Positions 5,754 through 43,267 of a stretch of DNA of 64,000 nt are shown here, in pieces (the stretch's first letter is position 1; each line of letters begins with the position of its first letter). The notes beneath the pieces are model-generated. The model searched no databases and was not told the origin of the DNA. It saw nothing but the letters and a program-made list of their open reading frames with translations. Both the position numbers and the translations under genes were made by a program. The stretch comes from Pseudomonadales bacterium (GTDB lineage: Bacteria; Pseudomonadota; Gammaproteobacteria; Pseudomonadales; Azotimanducaceae), in the NCBI GenBank assembly GCA_012103505.1, contig WLWP01000001.1:2480001-2544000 (forward strand), in the 5' to 3' direction.

Positions 5754-6668
5754 ATGGCCACTCCACGCTCACAACTCGTCGATCCAGAGAACCCTTTGTT
5801 CTATCACTTGGTTTCTCGATGTGTACGCCAGAGTTGGTTATGTGGCATCAATCGAGCCACTCGAAAAAACTATACGCATCGAAAAGACTGGTTGCTGAAG
5901 AGGCTTGAACAGCTCGGTGAAGCTTTTTCTCTCGATATCTACGCCTATGCGATCATGTCTAACCATTTCCACCTTGTTGTCCGCTACGATCCACGTGTAG
6001 CTGATGATTGGTCAATCGAAGAGGTCGCAGATCGCTGGCACAAGGCTTGTCCACCGAAAAGAAAAGATGGCTCGATCGACCACGAAAAGAGGGAGATTCA
6101 GAGACAACTTCTTCTTTGCGATTCGCAGAAGCTAGAGAGACTTCGAACATATCTTGGCTCGATGTCTTTCTTCATGAAAATGTTAAAACAACCCATCGCA
6201 CGACGAGCCAACTTAGAAGATGATTGTACCGGGCACTTTTTTGACCAACGCTACTATTCCGGCGCTTTACTATCCGAAGCGGCAGTTCTCTCAGCTATGG
6301 CGTACGTTGACCTGAACCCCATCCGGGTAAAGATCGCTTCTTCCGTGGAAGGCAGCAAACACACCTCGATTCGCGCTCGACTAGACCAAATTGATAATCC
6401 AGCCGAGTTAGACGCTTACCTCAAACCAGTGATCTCAGGTATTGATCGTGAGCGCGTACTCCCGATTTCGGTACGCGCGTATCTTGATCATCTACAAGCA
6501 TTGATACCTACAGGACTCTCAACTTGGAATAAGGACAAATTGGACACCTGGCGACATCAGGTGACAAGCTTGAAGAGACGTCAGAGAGCTTTTGGAACGG
6601 TCAGCGAGTTATCGTCGTGGGCTGTTGCCCGTGGATGGAAGCGCCAGGACGAACCCCTTCCGAACTAG
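5754..6668 (+). CDS. RAYT-type (REP-associated tyrosine) Y1 transposase
   Basis: HUH-superfamily single-strand endonuclease of the IS200-like Y1 group, of the RAYT branch that is usually domesticated as a single-copy gene. It shows YHLVSRCVRQSWLCG near the N terminus, the metal-binding HUH motif in SNHFHLVV near residue 73, GHFFDQRYYSGALL and AMAYVDLNPIRV, where the Tyr is the likely catalytic nucleophile. A basic C-terminal third (WRHQVTSLKRRQRAFG) completes the 304 residues. The gene looks intact. No terminal inverted repeats or target duplications flank it, as expected for a RAYT rather than an active insertion sequence. Its neighbourhood carries many copies of GTGTGTC, the nearest 96 bp upstream, which makes that motif a candidate for its REP-like substrate. 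Confidence 0.85.
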   Translation: MATPRSQLVDPENPLFYHLVSRCVRQSWLCGINRATRKNYTHRKDWLLKRLEQLGEAFSLDIYAYAIMSNHFHLVVRYDPRVADDWSIEEVADRWHKACPPKRKDGSIDHEKREIQRQLLLCDSQKLERLRTYLGSMSFFMKMLKQPIARRANLEDDCTGHFFDQRYYSGALLSEAAVLSAMAYVDLNPIRVKIASSVEGSKHTSIRARLDQIDNPAELDAYLKPVISGIDRERVLPISVRAYLDHLQALIPTGLSTWNKDKLDTWRHQVTSLKRRQRAFGTVSELSSWAVARGWKRQDEPLPN

Positions 6669-35213: not shown

Positions 35214-35834
35214 CTAACCAGTAGTCACACCACCTGCGGCTTCGACTAACTGCGCGAGAACGTCATACTCTTGAGCTCCAACCACACCTTTGCCGTTGGC
35301 GACGAACGTTGGGACACCCGTGACCCCATAGGATCGCGACAGCTGCCAATCTGCATCTACCGCAGGTGAAAATGTACGGTCCTGTATAACGACTTCCGCG
35401 ACCCCTCGATCTAACCCAACTTGGTCAACCAAGTCCAGGAGGACGGCTGGATCGGCAATGTTTTTGCCATCGACAAAGTAGGCTTGGTACATGGCACCGT
35501 GGATCGTCTCGCCTTGCGGTTGCGTTTCTGCCCACTTGGCGACTTCCTGCGCCAATCGACTATTGTAAGTATGTGTTCTTCGCCCAAACGGCAGCCCTTC
35601 TTCGTCCATTGCTGCCTTCATATTGAGATAGATCGCTTCGGCGTCTAGATTGCGGCCAGCGAATAGCTCATCCAAAGATTTACCTTCGATGGGCGTCTCA
35701 GGGTGAAGGGGAAAGTGTACCCAACGCACCTCGACATCATAGGTCTCTCGTAACTTTTCAATACGCCCGGTACTGATGTAACACCAGGGTCAGACGAAGT
35801 CGGAAAAGATCTCGACTATCAGTGGTTCAGCCAT
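35214..35834 (-). CDS. FrnE-like DsbA-family protein, candidate selenoprotein (TGA at codon 15)
   Basis: Read from the ATG at 35834, the protein starts MAEPLIVEIFSDFV-(TGA)-PWCY, where FrnE/DsbA-like proteins have SDxxCPWCY. The in-frame TGA (35792-35790) replaces the first active-site Cys, giving U-P-W-C. The frame then runs on without a defect to residue 206, with VRWVHFPLHPETP, FGRRTHTYNSRLAQ, HGAMYQAYFVDGKNIADPAV and the cis-Pro loop GVTGVPTFVANG, all usual for the family. A 6-bp hairpin with a bulged U directly follows the TGA. The best reading is selenocysteine insertion; a nonsense mutation or a sequencing error is the alternative. Without readthrough a GTG at codon 36 would give a 171-residue product lacking the active site. 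Likely role: cytoplasmic redox or polyketide/xenobiotic-linked disulfide chemistry. Confidence 0.7.
35766..35789 (-). promoter_or_regulatory. Candidate bacterial SECIS hairpin
   Basis: The mRNA directly after the UGA reads CCC-U-GGU, an 11-base loop, then ACC-GGG. This gives six GC-rich pairs with a single bulged U between the two halves of the stem. A bulged U and a small apical loop are the features SelB reads in the known fdhF element. The hairpin is somewhat closer to the UGA than in Escherichia coli fdhF. It is within the coding region, as usual in bacteria. The stem is short, so chance cannot be excluded. Confidence 0.45.
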
Positions 35835-35880: not shown

Positions 35881-37962
35881 TCACGTACGACGCGTTGCGA
35901 GGCGTCGCCTTTGTCCCAGCCATAATATACCGAAGGCAACCAACAGCGCCATGTAGGTGCTCGGTTCGGGAGCTGCATAACCCTGTAACGAAGGCGTTGT
36001 GTAAGCCGCAGACGTCGTGCCCGCGACCTTCGGCAACACCACGTTTCGCTCAGGTGTGTTTGCTGTATTCAAGTTATAGATCTTCTCGGAAACTGCGACA
36101 AAGGATGTCCACCGGGTGACCAAATTGTGTGAGAGACCAAGATTGAGAATGCGTGCGCGCAGCTCGTCATCCGTCTTTTGATCGATTCTGCGTTCAGGAG
36201 GCGCGACAAATTCTTGCATCGCATCTGTCACAGCAGTTCGAGCCCAGATTTGGCGCAACACAGGTGCTTTGCTATGTTGTTCTAGATCGACTGGAACAAT
36301 CAGTTTGGCTTGCTCACCAAGGCGTTGCCCACGCAATTCGACAAAGCCCGAAAATGGTTCGGTATACCTACCTGTCACCCGCACAGTGTCACCCGCATAC
36401 AGGTCTGGAATTCGCATCGGAAAAACATCGGTCACAGGCAAGTCAGTCCAATCTACCTCAATGTTTCGCAGTACCGGCGTCTGCAATCTGGCAGAGAGTT
36501 CCGCAGCTACGGACGCGATGCTCTCGTCATCGCGGGTTGGGTCGAAATAGCGGGTAAAGCCCTGGCCTACCCGACTCACCTCATCCAACAGATAGCGATT
36601 GACCCCTGCACCAACGCCATAGGCGAACAAACGAGCACCGCGCAAGTTCGTTTCAATGAGCCTCAATATCGATAACTCATTGCCAATGTAACCGTCCGTC
36701 AAGAAGACAATGTTGCGCACACGGTCACCATAGATCGGCGGCATTAGCGCTTGTGATATGCCTGCGCTCATCACTGTGCCACCACCGCCCGACAACCCAG
36801 CTGTGTAGCGCAAACCACGCGAGATATTTTCAGGTGTCGCGCTAACGGGGTGAGAGGAAAACTCTGTTGCCGCATCGCTGAAACGGATAATCCGGAACGT
36901 ATCATCTGGCCTGAGGCCTTTTAGCGCGGCACGCATAAAGGCTTTGCTCGCGTTCATCGGCTGACCAGACATCGAACCGGAGCAGTCCAACAGAAAAACC
37001 ATCTCTCGCGGGATAGCGTTGTTCTCGATGAGCTTGGCCGGGGGCTCTATGAGAAGGCTAAAGTACCCCCCTTCTTCGATCTGCCAGTGCTGCAACAGAC
37101 CTACCTGTTCAGAGGACGTCTCCTGAGTCATATATCGAATAACAAGATCTTTGTTGTCTTGTACTTGGCCCTTCTCAAAACCTGCCTCAATCTGAGTGGT
37201 CGAGATATGCCGTAAGCTGAGCGCATGTGTTGGGCTAGTTATCGTCTTCAAAGAGGTCGGCATTTCAATCGCCAGCTGCAATTTGACCCGATCTGCAGTA
37301 AATGAACTTGGCACATGGACGCCACTATATGGCGCGGCGGGCGGGAGAGCCTCGAAAGTCCAGAGCCCTATTTGCGCCTGTTCATCATGGTCGATGTTCT
37401 CAGGTTCGATACCCGCGCCCGCTGGTTGGAACCTGGGACCCACCACCAAGGGGACGACGAGTTCATAGTGTCCGTCGATCTTGGGTACAGATTGGCTGTA
37501 TTCGATTTCAACCCTGATCGGCTGCCCAGGCATTAAGTTGGCAATTCGTTGAGTAAACATGTTGGGGCGATGTTGGTCTAAGAGGCTAGCAGCCTTGCCA
37601 GCCTTTTTAGCCTTAGTAAATATCTCTTTGGCCTGCGTCCGCTCCTTTATCTGTGCACGGATCACTTCATCGCCTACATACATCGTCATGGCGTGGACCA
37701 CGGCTGTCCGTCGAAGGGGGAAGAGGTAGCGGGCGTGCATGGGCTTGTCGCTTGGGTTCCTAAACTCCTGCGTCACTGTGACGTTGGCAACATCTCCACG
37801 GACATCGATAGAGTACTCGTTCTCTAATGCAGCAAACCGCAGGAGTTCACCATCAATCTCCGCTACCACTACCCCGGCTATCGGAGTCGTATCAGCATGG
37901 ACAAAACCAGTCATTAACAAGAGAAGCGAACATAGGATTCGACCCATCAAGAACTTCACCAT
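35881..37962 (-). CDS. VIT and VWA domain protein with PEP-CTERM sorting tail
   Basis: Predicted sole target of the neighbouring exosortase. A signal peptide (ILCSLLLLMTGFVHA) leads to a VIT domain at about residues 30-160 (NVTVTQEFRNPSDKPMHARY, LFPLRRTAVVHAM, then ANLMPGQPIRVEIEYSQSV). A VWA domain at about 320-500 has the MIDAS motif MVFLLDCSGSMSGQPM, the Thr loop and IVFLTDGYIGNE. The C terminus reads PEPSTYMALLVAFGILWLGQ followed by RRR: a PEP motif, one membrane helix and a basic end, the tripartite PEP-CTERM signal. GGAGG lies 9 bp before the ATG, inside the end of the exosortase gene 4 bp away. VIT/VWA proteins of this layout are known as targets of dedicated sortases in marine proteobacteria; here an exosortase takes that place. 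Confidence 0.9.
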   Translation of the reverse strand: MVKFLMGRILCSLLLLMTGFVHADTTPIAGVVVAEIDGELLRFAALENEYSIDVRGDVANVTVTQEFRNPSDKPMHARYLFPLRRTAVVHAMTMYVGDEVIRAQIKERTQAKEIFTKAKKAGKAASLLDQHRPNMFTQRIANLMPGQPIRVEIEYSQSVPKIDGHYELVVPLVVGPRFQPAGAGIEPENIDHDEQAQIGLWTFEALPPAAPYSGVHVPSSFTADRVKLQLAIEMPTSLKTITSPTHALSLRHISTTQIEAGFEKGQVQDNKDLVIRYMTQETSSEQVGLLQHWQIEEGGYFSLLIEPPAKLIENNAIPREMVFLLDCSGSMSGQPMNASKAFMRAALKGLRPDDTFRIIRFSDAATEFSSHPVSATPENISRGLRYTAGLSGGGGTVMSAGISQALMPPIYGDRVRNIVFLTDGYIGNELSILRLIETNLRGARLFAYGVGAGVNRYLLDEVSRVGQGFTRYFDPTRDDESIASVAAELSARLQTPVLRNIEVDWTDLPVTDVFPMRIPDLYAGDTVRVTGRYTEPFSGFVELRGQRLGEQAKLIVPVDLEQHSKAPVLRQIWARTAVTDAMQEFVAPPERRIDQKTDDELRARILNLGLSHNLVTRWTSFVAVSEKIYNLNTANTPERNVVLPKVAGTTSAAYTTPSLQGYAAPEPSTYMALLVAFGILWLGQRRRLATRRT

Positions 37963-37965
37963 TTT

Positions 37966-39453
37966 TCAAGCCTCCTCAGACTTAACGTTGTATGCGCGCC
38001 GAATGGCCGCATCCCAATTCTCAGCACCGGCCTGTGTGGAAGCAGGAAGTATTCTTTGCACCATCGACCATCTACTACCTGGACTACGCAACCATCGCCA
38101 GACCATCTCGCTCACAGATACAGCCTGGTCCCCTTTGTTCGAAATATAGGAAACGCGGACCTCATGAATCGCCCTGTCAGAGGTCACGCGATAGACCGTG
38201 GATGAAATGTCAAAGTTTGTACCAACCAACTCGACCTCGAGACCGTTCGCTTTGAGGCAGATGGCGGGATCGTGCAGATGGCGTAAGGGCGACTCCGTCG
38301 TCACAACCAGGAGCGTGTGCGGTCCGTACACGCTGCGTGTTGCAGAGCCGCCGTAGGTCGCAAAATAGCGCTTCTCGATCGGTGTCAAATCAGTGTCAGT
38401 CTTCAAAAAATCAGCCGCGACCCGAGGCGACAAAGGGGGTGGGAGTTCCGGAGACGCATCTATGGGTCGCGGCTGAATAGCACCAACCGACAGTGCAAAA
38501 AAGAGAAAGGCACCGCTAAGCACTAACTTAGGCTGGCGCGGTAGCATCGGCGCCCTAGCTGGCGCGATGGCCTGGAAACTCGGTCGACGATATTTCCGTG
38601 CTGCCAAAACCAAAATACTCACAGCTAACGCGGTCATGACAAGACCGATCAAATTGTGCGGGATAGGCGACATCATAGAAAAACCCAGCGTCGGCTCGTG
38701 AACTAACCCGAGGGCAATGACCATGATGCGTAGGCTATTGACAGCAAGCGCTGCGCAAATTGCAACCACGATGCCAAAAAACGCCGACGCAAGATTCGGC
38801 CTTGTCACACAGTTTATCAATGCGAGACTGAGCCCAACGATACTCAAGAGTTCAGATCCAGAGCACGGTATGTCCACCAGGAGTTCTTTTTCTGCAGCCA
38901 CTATCCGGACACCCTGACAAGCTAAGTCCTCAACCCAAGGCAGTATCAACAAACAAGCAATGTCTGCCGACAAATGCTGCAAACCATAGCCCACGAGTCT
39001 CTGGATAAGTGGCTCGATTGGGAGTGCAAACAGGAAAAGTACGCCTAGCCAGAACGGCGAGGCTGACCTCTCGCGCGCGGGCAGTCTGAACAGAGAAGCT
39101 ACAGCGAAAATATCTACGCACAACAGCAGTGCGCCGAGAATACTAACGTCTAAGATCTGCGCTCCCAACCGTAGCGCAGCACTGATGAGCAACGCCCAGA
39201 ACGGATTGAACCATTTCAATGTGGGGGTTCCCTCAAACGCTACTTGGGTCTTAGAAATCGATGACGACCCAGACCAAATGAATACAACAACAACGAGGGC
39301 AGCAGCTAACCAACCAACGCCGTCGTAACCAGGCGCAATCCATGTATTCGAGAGCCATACCATGGGTTCAAGCGCTAAGAAGCAAGCACCCAGCAGGAGC
39401 ATTCCCTTGCTCAAAAGTCCTCGGCAGTCGTGTATGTGCGGTGTATCTGACAT
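37966..39453 (-). CDS. Exosortase with C-terminal EpsI-like domain
   Basis: Multi-pass inner-membrane cysteine transpeptidase-like enzyme that cuts PEP-CTERM proteins. At least eight hydrophobic segments cover residues about 15-310. The catalytic residues are in their expected places: Cys in DIPCSGSELLSIVG near residue 197, Arg in NSLRIMVIALG near 241 and His in SPIPHNLIGLVM near 266. Residues about 340-495 form a periplasmic domain with SPLRHLHDPAICLKANGLEV, matching the EpsI/DUF3485 family (H-x-P-x-x-C-L). The ATG at MSDTPHIHDC is preferred over a GTG upstream. The stop codon lies 4 bp before the start of its VIT/VWA target, so the two are one operon. Which exosortase subtype this is cannot be told by eye. 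Confidence 0.9.
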   Translation of the reverse strand: MSDTPHIHDCRGLLSKGMLLLGACFLALEPMVWLSNTWIAPGYDGVGWLAAALVVVVFIWSGSSSISKTQVAFEGTPTLKWFNPFWALLISAALRLGAQILDVSILGALLLCVDIFAVASLFRLPARERSASPFWLGVLFLFALPIEPLIQRLVGYGLQHLSADIACLLILPWVEDLACQGVRIVAAEKELLVDIPCSGSELLSIVGLSLALINCVTRPNLASAFFGIVVAICAALAVNSLRIMVIALGLVHEPTLGFSMMSPIPHNLIGLVMTALAVSILVLAARKYRRPSFQAIAPARAPMLPRQPKLVLSGAFLFFALSVGAIQPRPIDASPELPPPLSPRVAADFLKTDTDLTPIEKRYFATYGGSATRSVYGPHTLLVVTTESPLRHLHDPAICLKANGLEVELVGTNFDISSTVYRVTSDRAIHEVRVSYISNKGDQAVSVSEMVWRWLRSPGSRWSMVQRILPASTQAGAENWDAAIRRAYNVKSEEA

Positions 39454-39540
39454 GCCGTAAGTGTCACAACATAGCCTTGAGAAAAAATGCACGACACGCG
39501 TCGATCCCCGAAGTTAACTGCTGCATTAGTCCCACATAAG

Positions 39541-39558
39541 TGTGCAATTTTTGTGCAA
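39541..39558. promoter_or_regulatory. 11-bp-phased direct repeat TGTGCAA in the divergent promoter
   Basis: TGTGCAA occurs at 39541 and again at 39552, exactly one helical turn apart, in the 155 bp between the exosortase/target operon and the response regulator gene. OmpR/PhoB-family regulators usually bind such tandem half-sites; CreB uses TTCAC-N6-TTCAC with the same 11-bp phase. A binding site of the adjacent regulator is the simplest reading. Promoter boxes were not assigned. Confidence 0.5.
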
Positions 39559-39608
39559 CAGGACTATCGACGGCTTAAAACCAATCTCATCGAGAGTAGA
39601 ATGGGCAG

Positions 39609-40271
39609 ATGAAATGCGTGTTAGTAGTCGATGATGATCCACATATCCGTGAGGTAGTCTGTTTTGCTTTGGAGCAAGACGGTTTCCAAACACTGGTTGC
39701 ACGTGACGGTGTAGAGGCGCTCAGGCAACAGAGGACGCATAAACCGGATCTAATCGTCTTAGACATACTTATGCCGGAGTTGGATGGTCTCGCAGTCTGT
39801 CGCTCACTGCGTGAGATCAGCCAGGTACCCATACTTCTGCTGTCATCAAGGGATGAAGAAGTCGATCGGATTCTTGGACTTGAAGCGGGTGCAGACGACT
39901 ACATAGGCAAACCGTTCAGCCCGCGCGAGCTTGTTGCGCGGGTCAAGGCTAACCTACGTCGTGAGCAAATCCCGCGAGAAATCCAAGCCTACGGTTATGA
40001 GATGTCTGAAGAGACCCATACGGCAATGTGGCGGCAGCAGCGCCTTGATCTAACTCGCACTGAATTTCAGTTGCTGCAAACCCTCGCAGCAAAACCCGGG
40101 CGGGTATTTAGTAGGGACGAACTGATGAAACACGCCTACAGTGAACGTCGAGTCGTCAGTCACCGCACCATCGATAGTCACATTAGACGCCTTCGTGACA
40201 AACTAGCAGACGCTGGCGCCCCAGGCATAACCACGGTCCATGGGATCGGTTTCAAACTCGTACAGCCTTAA
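39609..40271 (+). CDS. OmpR-family response regulator (CreB-like)
   Basis: DNA-binding response regulator of 220 residues. The receiver domain has VLVVDDDPHIREVV with the acidic pocket, the phospho-acceptor Asp of LIVLDILMPELDG near residue 54, and DDYIGKPFSPREL with the conserved Lys. The winged-helix output domain has RTEFQLLQTLAAKPGRVFSR and RTIDSHIRRLRDKL, then VHGIGFKL. The segment EEVDRILGLEAGADDY is closest to CreB in my memory. Its stop overlaps the kinase start by one base (TAATG). Placed divergently from the exosortase operon, it most likely controls that operon. Confidence 0.88.
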   Translation: MKCVLVVDDDPHIREVVCFALEQDGFQTLVARDGVEALRQQRTHKPDLIVLDILMPELDGLAVCRSLREISQVPILLLSSRDEEVDRILGLEAGADDYIGKPFSPRELVARVKANLRREQIPREIQAYGYEMSEETHTAMWRQQRLDLTRTEFQLLQTLAAKPGRVFSRDELMKHAYSERRVVSHRTIDSHIRRLRDKLADAGAPGITTVHGIGFKLVQP

Positions 40272-41842
40272 TGCACGTCTCGCTCCGCACACTACTTATC
40301 TCCCTGAATCTGATTGTTCTGCTGCTACCGCTAGCAGGCATACAACTCCTACGAATCTATGAATCAGCCCTCGTCCGACAAACGGAATCAGCTTTAATCG
40401 CTCAATCGGCCTTTATCGCGGCGTTCTACCGCTCTTTGATCCTCTCTGAGTATCAAGATGGCTGGATTGAACATAGCATTGATCCGCCATCGGATAGGTC
40501 AGCAGAAGCCGAGATCCCCGCCAAACCGATCGTTTGGGTGCCTCGGGCTGCTGTGTTGGATTTAGCGAGTTCAGAAATACATGATCCCTTTCCAGATCCT
40601 GTGAGTGTTTCTAACCCCCGCCTCTCTAAAAACCCGCAACGTTTCCCAGCGGTAACCGATCGCCTCAATCCGACTCTCAAAGATGCGCAGTTAACGACTC
40701 TAGCGGGCATCCGCGTCGTAGATATAACTGGCACAATTATCGCCTCGACCGGCACCGATCTTGGAGAGTCCATCGCAAATAGTGCCGAGATATCGGGTGC
40801 GCTTGAGGGCAGATCGGTCAGCATGTTGCGAACGAAATCCGAAGTCCCAGAGCCTACTGCACTCGATTCCTTCAGCAGAACGAGCCGTATACGGGTCTTT
40901 GTCTCCGCCCCTATCCTCCTGGAGGATCGCATCATTGGCGCGGTCATGTTATCGCGCACACCACCAAGCATTATCCAAGCGCTATATGGAAAGCGCTGGC
41001 TTTTAGGTCAATCTTTTCTGGTCGTACTCACGCTCGTCGTGCTCATGTCTCTTATCGCGCACCGTTTGATCACACGACCGATCGAACGGATCGTATCTGC
41101 GGCAGAAGACATCTCCCATGGCAGAATTCATGCTCATCAAAAACTCGCTCGTCGTGATCCAGCCATAACCGAATTCATTCGACTGCAACACGCAATATCA
41201 AAAATGGCGGAGTCTCTCGAGGCAAGAGCCGAGTATCTGCAAAACTTCGTACGACACATATCACACGAATTCAAAACGCCACTGGCGGGAATTAAGGGAG
41301 CAACCGAACTCATTGAAGAACACGGTGAGAACATGCAAGCGGAGCAACTGCGAAAATTCCTGCAAAACATCACGTCTGACACAGACCGACTGCAGACTTT
41401 GACGGAACGTCTAAACCAACTCACTCAAGCGGAGTTGCGACCTCTAGAGGATCAACCAACTCACCTAACGGATATTGTGGCAAGCCTGCAGCGCAATTTT
41501 ACTGGACTTCAAATCAAAGCTGACGTGGCAAATGCCGGAGAGGTTGACGGGAGCCACTGTTCTTCTGCGTTAGAAATTCTCCTGACAAACGCCCAGCAAC
41601 ACGGCGCCAAGAATGTCGTGATCTCTGGCAAGCCCACAGAACTCATTGTGGAGAACGATGGCACGCCGATCTCGGCAGGTAATTCTGATCAACTCTTTAC
41701 GCCCTTTTTTACCACGCGTCGCGAACAAGGTGGTACTGGGTTGGGACTATCGATCGCAGCAGCACTTGTCGCAAAGATGGGTGCAGACCTAAGGCTGGCC
41801 AACGCCAACCCCGTCCAATTTACGATTGTCTGGCCCGACTAA
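40271..41842 (+). CDS. CreC-like sensor histidine kinase
   Basis: Membrane sensor kinase of 523 residues. The first helix (LLISLNLIVLLLPLAGIQLL) is followed by a periplasmic sensing region of about 200 residues (LAGIRVVDITGTIIASTGTD is Cache-like). A second helix (FLVVLTLVVLMSLIAHRLI) leads into HAMP, then the dimerisation helix FVRHISHEFKTPLAGIKGAT with the phospho-His. The ATPase domain has LLTNAQQHGAKNVVI (N box), a short DGTPIS in place of DNGxG, and GGTGLGLSIAAALV (G2). It is translated with the response regulator. A signal related to cell-envelope state is likely, given the surface-protein operon beside it; the ligand is unknown. Confidence 0.88.
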   Translation: MHVSLRTLLISLNLIVLLLPLAGIQLLRIYESALVRQTESALIAQSAFIAAFYRSLILSEYQDGWIEHSIDPPSDRSAEAEIPAKPIVWVPRAAVLDLASSEIHDPFPDPVSVSNPRLSKNPQRFPAVTDRLNPTLKDAQLTTLAGIRVVDITGTIIASTGTDLGESIANSAEISGALEGRSVSMLRTKSEVPEPTALDSFSRTSRIRVFVSAPILLEDRIIGAVMLSRTPPSIIQALYGKRWLLGQSFLVVLTLVVLMSLIAHRLITRPIERIVSAAEDISHGRIHAHQKLARRDPAITEFIRLQHAISKMAESLEARAEYLQNFVRHISHEFKTPLAGIKGATELIEEHGENMQAEQLRKFLQNITSDTDRLQTLTERLNQLTQAELRPLEDQPTHLTDIVASLQRNFTGLQIKADVANAGEVDGSHCSSALEILLTNAQQHGAKNVVISGKPTELIVENDGTPISAGNSDQLFTPFFTTRREQGGTGLGLSIAAALVAKMGADLRLANANPVQFTIVWPD

Positions 41843-41870: not shown

Positions 41871-43160
41871 TCACACGCAAGAAGTTTGTACCCCAGACCT
41901 TTTCAATCTCAGCCTCGTATAGCCACGTCGCACTAAGGCTTCGGTGACGACAAGTGCACCACTTGCATCAATAAAACCAGCGATGCCGCCACCATGGTTA
42001 AAGTCATTGCCTATACCCGCATGATCAATACCAATCCGATCAACGATGTAATCTATGTGATTGACGACGACCTCTGCACTTCCTTCTCCCAACAAATCAC
42101 TTATGGCCCCAGTATAGGCCTGTTGTGCCTCGCACCCTTCTATCTCCCAATAGAGCTCAAACGGGTAATCGTATTTCTGCGGCAACCCATGCTCTGTCCG
42201 TGTTTCTCGGATACGCCGATCAAGTTCCGGGTCATTGGAATCGAAAAGATAGCCCCGGAACGCTGCGACGTGGATAACACCACCTGTCGCACCAATCCGA
42301 TCGATTTCTTCATCAGATAAATTTCTGCGCACATTGGTTAACGCTTGAACGTTGGAGTGCGTGGCAAGAACTGGCGCCCGAGACAGCTCGATGGCTTGCA
42401 GAGCTGCTTGTTTTGAGAGTTGGCTAATATCGACCACTGCACCAAGATCATTGATGCGCTGTATCGCAGCAACCCCCAGCTCGGACAATCCACCGTGCTC
42501 CGCATCTGGTTCATAGCTGCTTGTTTCACCGTTATAAACCGGGCGAGAAGAGTCCGCGAAATCATTGTGTCCCATGTGGGTCAATGCGAATACACGGACA
42601 CCAGCCGCATGAAACTCGTCCACACCTTTCGGATCCAAGCCGAGTATACGCGCGTTCTGAAAACCGAGAATCATCGCTACCTGACCATTTTCGTGCGCCT
42701 CGACGATAGCTTCCGCACTTGTCGCAAGTACTGTTTTAGTCGTCGCGTCCGCGACTTGGGCGTGGATCGCGGCGACCTCTGCGTCTGCCTGCTGGCGAGC
42801 TTCAACAAACCCTGCTTCATCGCGGGGCCCGGGCCCAACAGCGGCCGCGACAACTACTGCATCGACACCACCCGCGTGCAACTTCACGGGCGCCACTCGA
42901 GACATGCCATCTGGACCTGCATATCTGGAAAGATTATCGGGAATCTCGATGTCCGCATGCGCATCTAGGACAAGTACCCGATCATGAATAGCGCGTGCGG
43001 TTGCTTGAATCTCAGCGTCTGTCCGCGCACTAGATGTTTCTGGTGCGGAGACTTCCAAGTCCCCTTCAACATTTTTACTAGCCTCAGCCTCTTCGTCTGG
43101 GCTACTACAAGACGCTGAAGTCAGAAGCCCTACCAATATCCACTTTGTAAAGTTGCTCAC
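41871..43160 (-). CDS. Membrane dipeptidase (M19) lipoprotein, frameshifted near the C terminus
   Basis: Zinc dipeptidase of the renal-dipeptidase family, exported as a lipoprotein (WILVGLLTSASCSS). The GTG start has AGGGGG 5 bp upstream. Metal-site segments are LVLDAHADIEIPDN (H-x-D), the Glu region around VFALTHMGHNDFADS, VVDISQLSKQA, PVLATHSNVQALTNVRRNLSD and GIDHAGIGNDFNHGGG. The family C-terminus is YTEAEIEKxWGxNFLRVM; here it is found in another frame directly after RRGYT, continuing to a stop at 41839 (GTNFLRVMRAAEAA). One missing base near 41920 explains this. So the product either has an altered 15-residue tail or the sequence has an indel error. Confidence 0.85.
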   Translation of the reverse strand: MSNFTKWILVGLLTSASCSSPDEEAEASKNVEGDLEVSAPETSSARTDAEIQATARAIHDRVLVLDAHADIEIPDNLSRYAGPDGMSRVAPVKLHAGGVDAVVVAAAVGPGPRDEAGFVEARQQADAEVAAIHAQVADATTKTVLATSAEAIVEAHENGQVAMILGFQNARILGLDPKGVDEFHAAGVRVFALTHMGHNDFADSSRPVYNGETSSYEPDAEHGGLSELGVAAIQRINDLGAVVDISQLSKQAALQAIELSRAPVLATHSNVQALTNVRRNLSDEEIDRIGATGGVIHVAAFRGYLFDSNDPELDRRIRETRTEHGLPQKYDYPFELYWEIEGCEAQQAYTGAISDLLGEGSAEVVVNHIDYIVDRIGIDHAGIGNDFNHGGGIAGFIDASGALVVTEALVRRGYTRLRLKRSGVQTSCV

Positions 43161-43267
43161 GCTACCCCCTATTAATTGTGCAGGAGAACTTAGCACGAGC
43201 ACTCGAAAAATGGCGAAAATAGTGTCACGCTTACCCGTTCAAGATCCTAGCTAAAGGCGTAAGTGAC

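Follow-up and report, generated by a model that had tools for sequence, protein, structure and literature searches.

The window considered here, i.e., the whole stretch of 64,000 nucleotides from a Pseudomonadales bacterium, harbours at positions 35881-41842 a compact set of four genes, which encode an exosortase, a protein with VIT and VWA domains (VIT/VWA protein) and a two-component system. The four genes form a real system, which is probably dedicated and controlled by a signal. The enzyme subtype and this kind of gene set are already known; the new element is a DNA site by which the four genes appear to be linked. The genes and features are arranged as follows:

35881-37962, minus strand: VIT/VWA protein of 693 aa with a signal-peptide-like N-terminus, a complete DxSxS metal-site motif and a PEP-CTERM-type tail; presumed sole target of exosortase T (XrtT).
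35902-35973, minus strand: PEP-CTERM-type tail of the VIT/VWA protein, residues 664-687 (APEPS, hydrophobic stretch, RRR).
37966-39492, minus strand: XrtT of 508 aa (NF033770) with a C-terminal EpsI-like domain.
39542-39558, minus strand: tandem site TTGCACAAAAATTGCAC, proposed operator of the response regulator, 50 bp from the GTG of XrtT and 51 bp from the ATG of the response regulator.
39609-40271, plus strand: OmpR/PhoB-type response regulator (RR), CreB-like, 220 aa (PF00072, PF00486).
40271-41842, plus strand: sensor histidine kinase (HK), CreC-like, 523 aa, with an extracytoplasmic PAS/Cache-like sensor (HisKA, HATPase_c).

An earlier, sequence-only reading of this DNA had proposed these four genes. 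All of them are present at the positions it gave, and their open reading frames (ORFs) are intact. XrtT lies upstream of the VIT/VWA gene on the same strand, and the RR and HK genes diverge from the promoter region of the exosortase, as had been described. The reported adjacency of exosortase and target likewise stands, but the spacing is 3 bp rather than 4 bp.

The exosortase matches NF033770, the NCBIfam model of exosortase T, with 432.6 bits (cut-off 250) over model positions 3-471 of 472. The classification by subtype models that the sequence-only reading had suggested thus leads to a subtype that already has a name. XrtT of the window is a divergent member, since three other proteins over the cut-off in a sample of the class score 488-620 bits. 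The gene starts with GTG and contains an in-frame ATG at codon 14. The Cys, Arg and His said to be retained are indeed kept: Cys210, Arg255 and His279, which we take to be the catalytic residues from general knowledge of exosortases, occur without exception in the 25 aligned XrtT proteins. The AlphaFold2 model reaches a mean predicted local distance difference test score (pLDDT) of 86.0; a search for a known solved structure with Foldseek yielded no match at E 0.001. The XrtA model is not among the matches listed for the XrtT protein at E 0.1. The C-terminal domain, which falls within the XrtT model, had been termed “EpsI-like”, but the link to EpsI is weak: aligned by hhalign to the C-terminal parts of fused exosortases, it has an H-x-P-x-x-C motif in register (P 0.0012, probability 19.5), and the EpsI model (TIGR02914) is absent from the exosortase matches at E 0.1. 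XrtT would cleave and transfer its target.

The putative target comprises a VIT domain (PF08487, 1.4e-31) and a VWA domain (PF13768, 6.5e-13). Its tail scores below the curated cut-offs (TIGR02595, 14.5 bits vs. 16; PF07589, 15.2 bits vs. 20.7), and inspection by eye reveals PEP, the hydrophobic stretch and the basic end. Despite the sub-cut-off score, the tail is predicted to work like a PEP-CTERM tail. A DxSGSM metal-site motif is kept in 27 of 27 XrtT targets, which suggests a binding or adhesive role of the VIT/VWA protein. The 27 XrtT-linked targets form a single clade with a support of 100 in the Shimodaira-Hasegawa-like approximate likelihood ratio test (SH-aLRT), and the sortase-type targets group apart. 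Two XrtT-bearing genomes encode a second VIT/VWA protein (L198:4834-7218 and L199:4837-7200), neither of which has a PEP-CTERM-like end.

To collect relatives of the locus, 84,980 genomes were scanned with a profile of alignment A1, which returned 29 loci. In the co-occurrence test proposed by the sequence-only reading, 28 of these loci proved to have a VIT/VWA gene downstream of XrtT in the same orientation; among them are two in which it runs off the contig, two in which it is broken and one (L065) in which it lies 1.4 kb away. The exception is a Vampirovibrionales metagenome-assembled genome (MAG), where a truncated XrtT of 196 aa (L079:8956-9546) is preceded by an exact copy of the tandem site, and neither a VIT gene nor a kinase was found in the genome. 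A CreBC-like two-component system occurs in 22 of the 29 genomes, either within the stored flanks (RR and/or HK; 16 genomes) or elsewhere as an RR-HK pair (6 genomes). The arrangement is variable: the regulatory genes may be divergent or unlinked, or they may share the strand of XrtT and lie either downstream or (in L062) upstream of it; the association holds throughout and is seen in Alpha- and Gammaproteobacteria. The sensor profile did not find the kinase in seven of the 29 genomes. Five of these belong to Thiomargarita, Parabeggiatoa or another member of the Thiotrichaceae and have neither the sensor nor the site at XrtT; L075 (2.6 Mb) and L079 make up the rest. XrtT itself is rare: it is present in 3 of 18 other genomes of the genus and exceeds the cut-off in 4 of 369 genomes of the class, compared to 50 of 369 for the sortase-type target. 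Spread by plasmids was considered and rejected, as tblastn gave no match in 72,556 plasmid records.

The RR and the HK score best on the models for CreB (NF008296, 228.3 bits) and CreC (NF008312, 140.2 bits), respectively. Since neither reaches its cut-off (273 and 356), the term “CreBC-like” chosen by the sequence-only reading is fair and “CreBC” is not. The RR is neither CreB nor the regulator of the marine sortase set (TIGR03787, 138.9 bits vs. a cut-off of 335.7), because it remains below both cut-offs and is separated from both in the RR tree. In that tree, built by a quick method that issued long-branch warnings, 26 XrtT-side RRs and the RR of a further locus, L049, constitute one group (SH-aLRT only 94) that leaves Escherichia coli CreB outside; of the eight sortase-side RRs, six form a cluster and the other two fall with E. 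coli CreB. The HK tree yielded no clean group, as another kinase of the window (ORF start 54763, end branch 7.06) falls inside, and it was not used as evidence. For the sensor of the kinase, structure prediction gives a PAS/Cache-like domain (pLDDT 83.5), which matches the sensor folds of DctB, CitA and WalK (best E 1.2e-4) with low query template-modelling scores of about 0.3. Given such a fold, a small periplasmic molecule is a plausible ligand. The sensor profile (A2) retrieves one protein in the own genome (2.1e-104) and one match per positive genome, and none in five XrtT-less genomes of the same genus.

The strongest evidence for dedicated control is a promoter site that the sequence-only reading had missed. 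Repeat searches detected TTGCAC repeats with a spacing of 11 or 22 bp in five intergenic regions, and the tandem TTGCAC-N5-TTGCAC exists as a single exact copy in the own genome of 5,820,554 bp, namely between XrtT and the RR gene. If one mismatch is allowed, the genome contains 33 sites compared to 26 for a reversed control pattern, which corresponds to background and gives no sign of a wider regulon; a wide TTGCAC regulon was therefore rejected for this genome. A comparison of coordinates places all 32 one-mismatch sites more than 4 kb away from the nine other PEP-CTERM matches in the genome. Sites were further counted in 32 XrtT loci (the window, L051-L079, L084 and L085). Around the XrtT starts, 17,969 bp contain 15 exact copies and the other 496,589 bp contain none; for one-mismatch sites the numbers are eight and one. 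Every match near XrtT has the orientation of XrtT. The best site per locus is exact in 15 cases, has one mismatch in six, two in four and is worse in seven, so that 25 of the 32 loci carry a site with at most two mismatches. Among the 27 loci outside the five that revealed the motif, an exact site is present in 11 and a site with no more than two mismatches in 20. Four alphaproteobacterial loci share the variant CTGCAC-N5-CTGCAC. At the level of whole genomes, 25 exact sites, of which 15 are located at XrtT, and three control matches occur in the 32 XrtT carriers, whereas 15 XrtT-less congeners contain seven of each, as expected by chance. An exact site at XrtT is found in 15 genomes, 13 of which have no other exact copy. 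Where the kinase is unlinked, the site is found at XrtT; the surroundings of the kinase itself gave no match with up to one mismatch.

The tag bound by CreB and BlrA, TTCACN6TTCAC, is an 11-bp repeat (PMC4689548), and the 11-bp period of the tandem site fits a CreB-like regulator. We infer that the RR binds TTGCAC-N5-TTGCAC. The operator appears to be new within the searchable literature: in the open-licence subset of PubMed Central, no paper mentions TTGCAC together with exosortase or PEP-CTERM, and “XrtT” as a whole word occurs only in unrelated engineering papers. One genome, G423, possesses additional exact sites at L157:3055 (between a TetR-like and a SIMPL-domain gene), L158:3354 (where an ORF of unknown family begins) and L159:2513 (without a clear promoter), and a small extra TTGCAC regulon is possible there.

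Several known systems resemble the XrtT set. The full-length match to exosortase T, together with the VIT/VWA gene that follows in the relatives, places it with that family. The sequence-only reading had likened the locus to a set of marine proteobacteria, which comprises a sortase (TIGR03784), a target (TIGR03788), a regulator (TIGR03787) and a kinase (TIGR03785), and had described it as the same logic with another chemistry. This comparison is apt: the VIT/VWA target is homologous, a dedicated transpeptidase-like enzyme adjoins it, and RR and HK genes lie nearby in several loci, but the enzyme is unrelated and the regulator lineage and the site differ. The target matches TIGR03788 over positions 1-617 of 629 with 446.8 bits, which is below the cut-off of 551.65, and belongs to its own clade; the XrtT-side RR falls outside the eight sortase-side RRs. 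A TIGR03784 sortase stands beside the VIT/VWA gene in 11 of 11 sortase-type loci (nine over the cut-off), and none of these 11 loci contains a TTGCAC tandem with at most one mismatch. At the XrtT set the adjacent enzyme is an exosortase and not such a class GN sortase, a comparison that concerns the adjoining gene and does not include a genome-wide TIGR03784 search. In one sortase-type VIT locus (L215:5483-10393, genome G190) the regulator is a full CreB by NCBIfam, with 304.5 bits vs. a cut-off of 273.

CreBC and BlrAB share with the XrtT set the best equivalog models for RR and HK and the direct repeat of 11 bp (PMC4689548). They differ in that both scores here are below the cut-offs, the half-site is TTGCAC instead of TTCAC, and the RR clade excludes E. 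coli CreB. Systems of XrtQ and XrtN with VIT proteins (NF012182, TIGR04476/TIGR04477) use another exosortase subtype. In an XrtQ set of genome G311 (L050:2366-9332), a VIT frame that ends in a PEP-CTERM tail precedes XrtQ (310.2 bits, cut-off 270), and RR- and HK-like frames upstream complete a four-gene set; no TTGCAC tandem is present at this locus. The locus L049:1519-8358 (genome G159) combines an XrtQ-like enzyme (139.5 bits, below the cut-off) with a VIT protein that has a PEP tail and matches TIGR04477 below the cut-off (105.5). Here, the counterpart of the EpsI-like part of XrtT, corresponding to model positions 293-444, is a separate gene, the kinase reads as two ORFs, and a divergent RR of the XrtT-side clade is accompanied by an exact TTGCACATGAATTGCAC at 5813-5829. 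Finally, the EpsH/PEP-CTERM (XrtA) system with PrsK/PrsR also unites an exosortase, PEP-CTERM proteins and a two-component system; as described in PMC1569441, it has many targets, an exopolysaccharide (EPS) locus and a sigma-54-type regulator, in contrast to one target, an OmpR-type regulator and no EPS genes among the neighbours scanned at the XrtT set.

We regard it as likely, and with good confidence, that the locus represents a complete XrtT system, in which XrtT processes the VIT/VWA protein and the two-component system switches the operon via the tandem site. The VIT/VWA protein would be exported and, through its PEP-CTERM tail, remain inserted in the inner membrane, where XrtT, using Cys210, Arg255 and His279, would cut the tail and pass the protein to an acceptor. 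The product would thereby come to lie beyond the inner membrane, most probably at the cell surface, to which it would presumably be attached. The kinase may sense a periplasmic ligand or state through its PAS/Cache-like domain and phosphorylate the CreB-like regulator, which would then bind TTGCAC-N5-TTGCAC and turn the XrtT-target operon on or off, perhaps along with its own genes. A broader and more tentative view, which we consider a serious possibility rather than an expectation, is that the kinase, the RR and the TTGCAC tandem constitute a portable signalling cassette with a near-single-promoter regulon, whose conserved output is the VIT/VWA protein, while sortase, XrtT, XrtQ and XrtN serve as interchangeable routes to place it. 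The cassette appears to follow the target rather than the enzyme, because the association survives unlinking and because the XrtQ-like locus L049 likewise combines an RR of the XrtT-side clade with an exact site.

The sequence-only reading had termed the system “self-contained” and free of EPS genes in its surroundings. The dedicated exosortase-target pair is supported, and no polysaccharide gene families were found among the ten neighbouring ORFs scanned at 29.8-48.8 kb, the scanned part of the window (one ORF had no match). A genome free of other PEP-CTERM systems was rejected, since the 5.82-Mb genome (21 contigs) contains nine PEP-CTERM matches over the cut-off, none of which is the VIT/VWA target, and a second, XrtA-like exosortase (G000:C6:1079648-1080394, L043; 139.5 bits, below the cut-off of 208). 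The latter resides in an EPS locus beside the chain-length determinant and the export protein of XrtA systems, both over their cut-offs. Other PEP-CTERM proteins would count against a dedicated pair only if they used XrtT. On a model of eight of their tails (the ninth had no locus), the VIT/VWA target scores 8.4 bits compared to 34.5-57.5 bits for these tails, each left out in turn. The target is thus clearly outside the other tail type, and the many PEP-CTERM proteins do not contradict the pair, even though tail likeness is no proof of enzyme use. An XrtT-tail model separates the target (29.7 bits) from the other tails (5.2-18.0 bits) only when three congeners are included. Accordingly, it is chiefly the position and the relatives that link the target to XrtT, and by these indications XrtT likely serves a single target in this genome. 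Of the 32 genomes with XrtT, 12 show no PF09721 match besides this enzyme; PEP-CTERM matches are likewise limited to its own target, which is matched in six of them.

A number of observations weigh against the complete system as outlined. The locus counts are not independent, since the Competibacteraceae loci are close relatives. One XrtT target (L077, 4735-6834) lacks PEP and has PAAGP in its tail instead. Without the genus, the XrtT-tail model gives the target 17.4 bits, within the range of 6.4-20.0 for the other tails of the genome. The absence of other PEP-CTERM proteins is a weak negative, because TIGR02595 is insensitive (at E 0.001 it recovers only six XrtT targets in the 32 genomes) and most genomes are incomplete MAGs; moreover, the MAG G398 has four other PEP-CTERM matches with XrtT as its only exosortase match. 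Ten exact sites in XrtT genomes lie away from XrtT (control: three), three of them in G423. Of the seven loci without a site, L054 and L072 nevertheless have a two-component system; L054 belongs to an isolate, Stappia sediminis, in which XrtT, a target with a PEP tail, the RR and the HK follow one another, and its site is degenerate with three mismatches. In G421 and G425 the site is present and no kinase was found.

Alternatively, XrtT might share its substrates with the XrtA-like enzyme, the nine PEP-CTERM proteins and the VIT/VWA protein forming one pool. Both enzymes and the other PEP-CTERM genes are located on the same 4.65-Mb contig, the target tail is weakly XrtT-like on the model trained outside the genus, and G398 fits as well. 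Yet the score of the target on the eight-tail model, the 12 genomes without another exosortase or other PEP-CTERM match and the adjacency in 28 of 29 loci render a shared pool improbable. Similarly, the tandem site might be bound by another, wider regulator, while the neighbouring two-component system controls something else. The sites without a detected kinase in G421 and G425 and the kinases without a recognisable site in G400 and G418 would agree with this; a wider regulator, however, would have more sites than the sole exact one in the own genome and in 13 of 15 genomes. Site and kinase also occur together in 23 of 25 vs. 2 of 7 genomes (Fisher p 0.0019, uncorrected for relatedness), and the same RR clade meets an exact site at L049, so that we deem a separate regulator quite improbable, too.

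Release of the VIT/VWA protein is an outcome to which we give more room, albeit still an unlikely one: XrtT could cut the protein free instead of anchoring it. The sequence decides neither way, and no attachment partner is encoded nearby, but by analogy with the sortase set, where a homologous target adjoins its own sortase in all 11 loci, anchoring would be the simpler assumption. A chance neighbourhood of a generic CreBC system and an exosortase pair is strongly disfavoured and hardly credible. OmpR-type systems are common, and seven of 29 genomes lack a kinase match; against this stand the association kept across gene orders in Alpha- and Gammaproteobacteria, the conserved site and the sensor profile with its one match per positive genome and none in the five XrtT-less congeners.

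Because most PEP-CTERM systems have many targets and lie in polysaccharide loci, it is difficult to establish which substrate and acceptor their enzyme naturally uses. In a system of one enzyme, one target and one promoter, both the substrate and the on-switch are defined and there is only one readout, and the proposed operator offers a handle for finding the signal. The complete XrtT system also raises the question of why VIT/VWA proteins are repeatedly accompanied by an anchoring enzyme of their own and by a two-component system, the enzyme being a sortase in one lineage and an exosortase in others.

The four genes are flanked by a DsbA-like thioredoxin ORF (35214-35729) and an M19 membrane dipeptidase (41871-43202), which are not retained beside XrtT in relatives, as far as seen. 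The family scan of the neighbours of the XrtT locus identified a CoA-transferase, a dehydrogenase, the DsbA-like protein, the M19 dipeptidase, a P450 and others.

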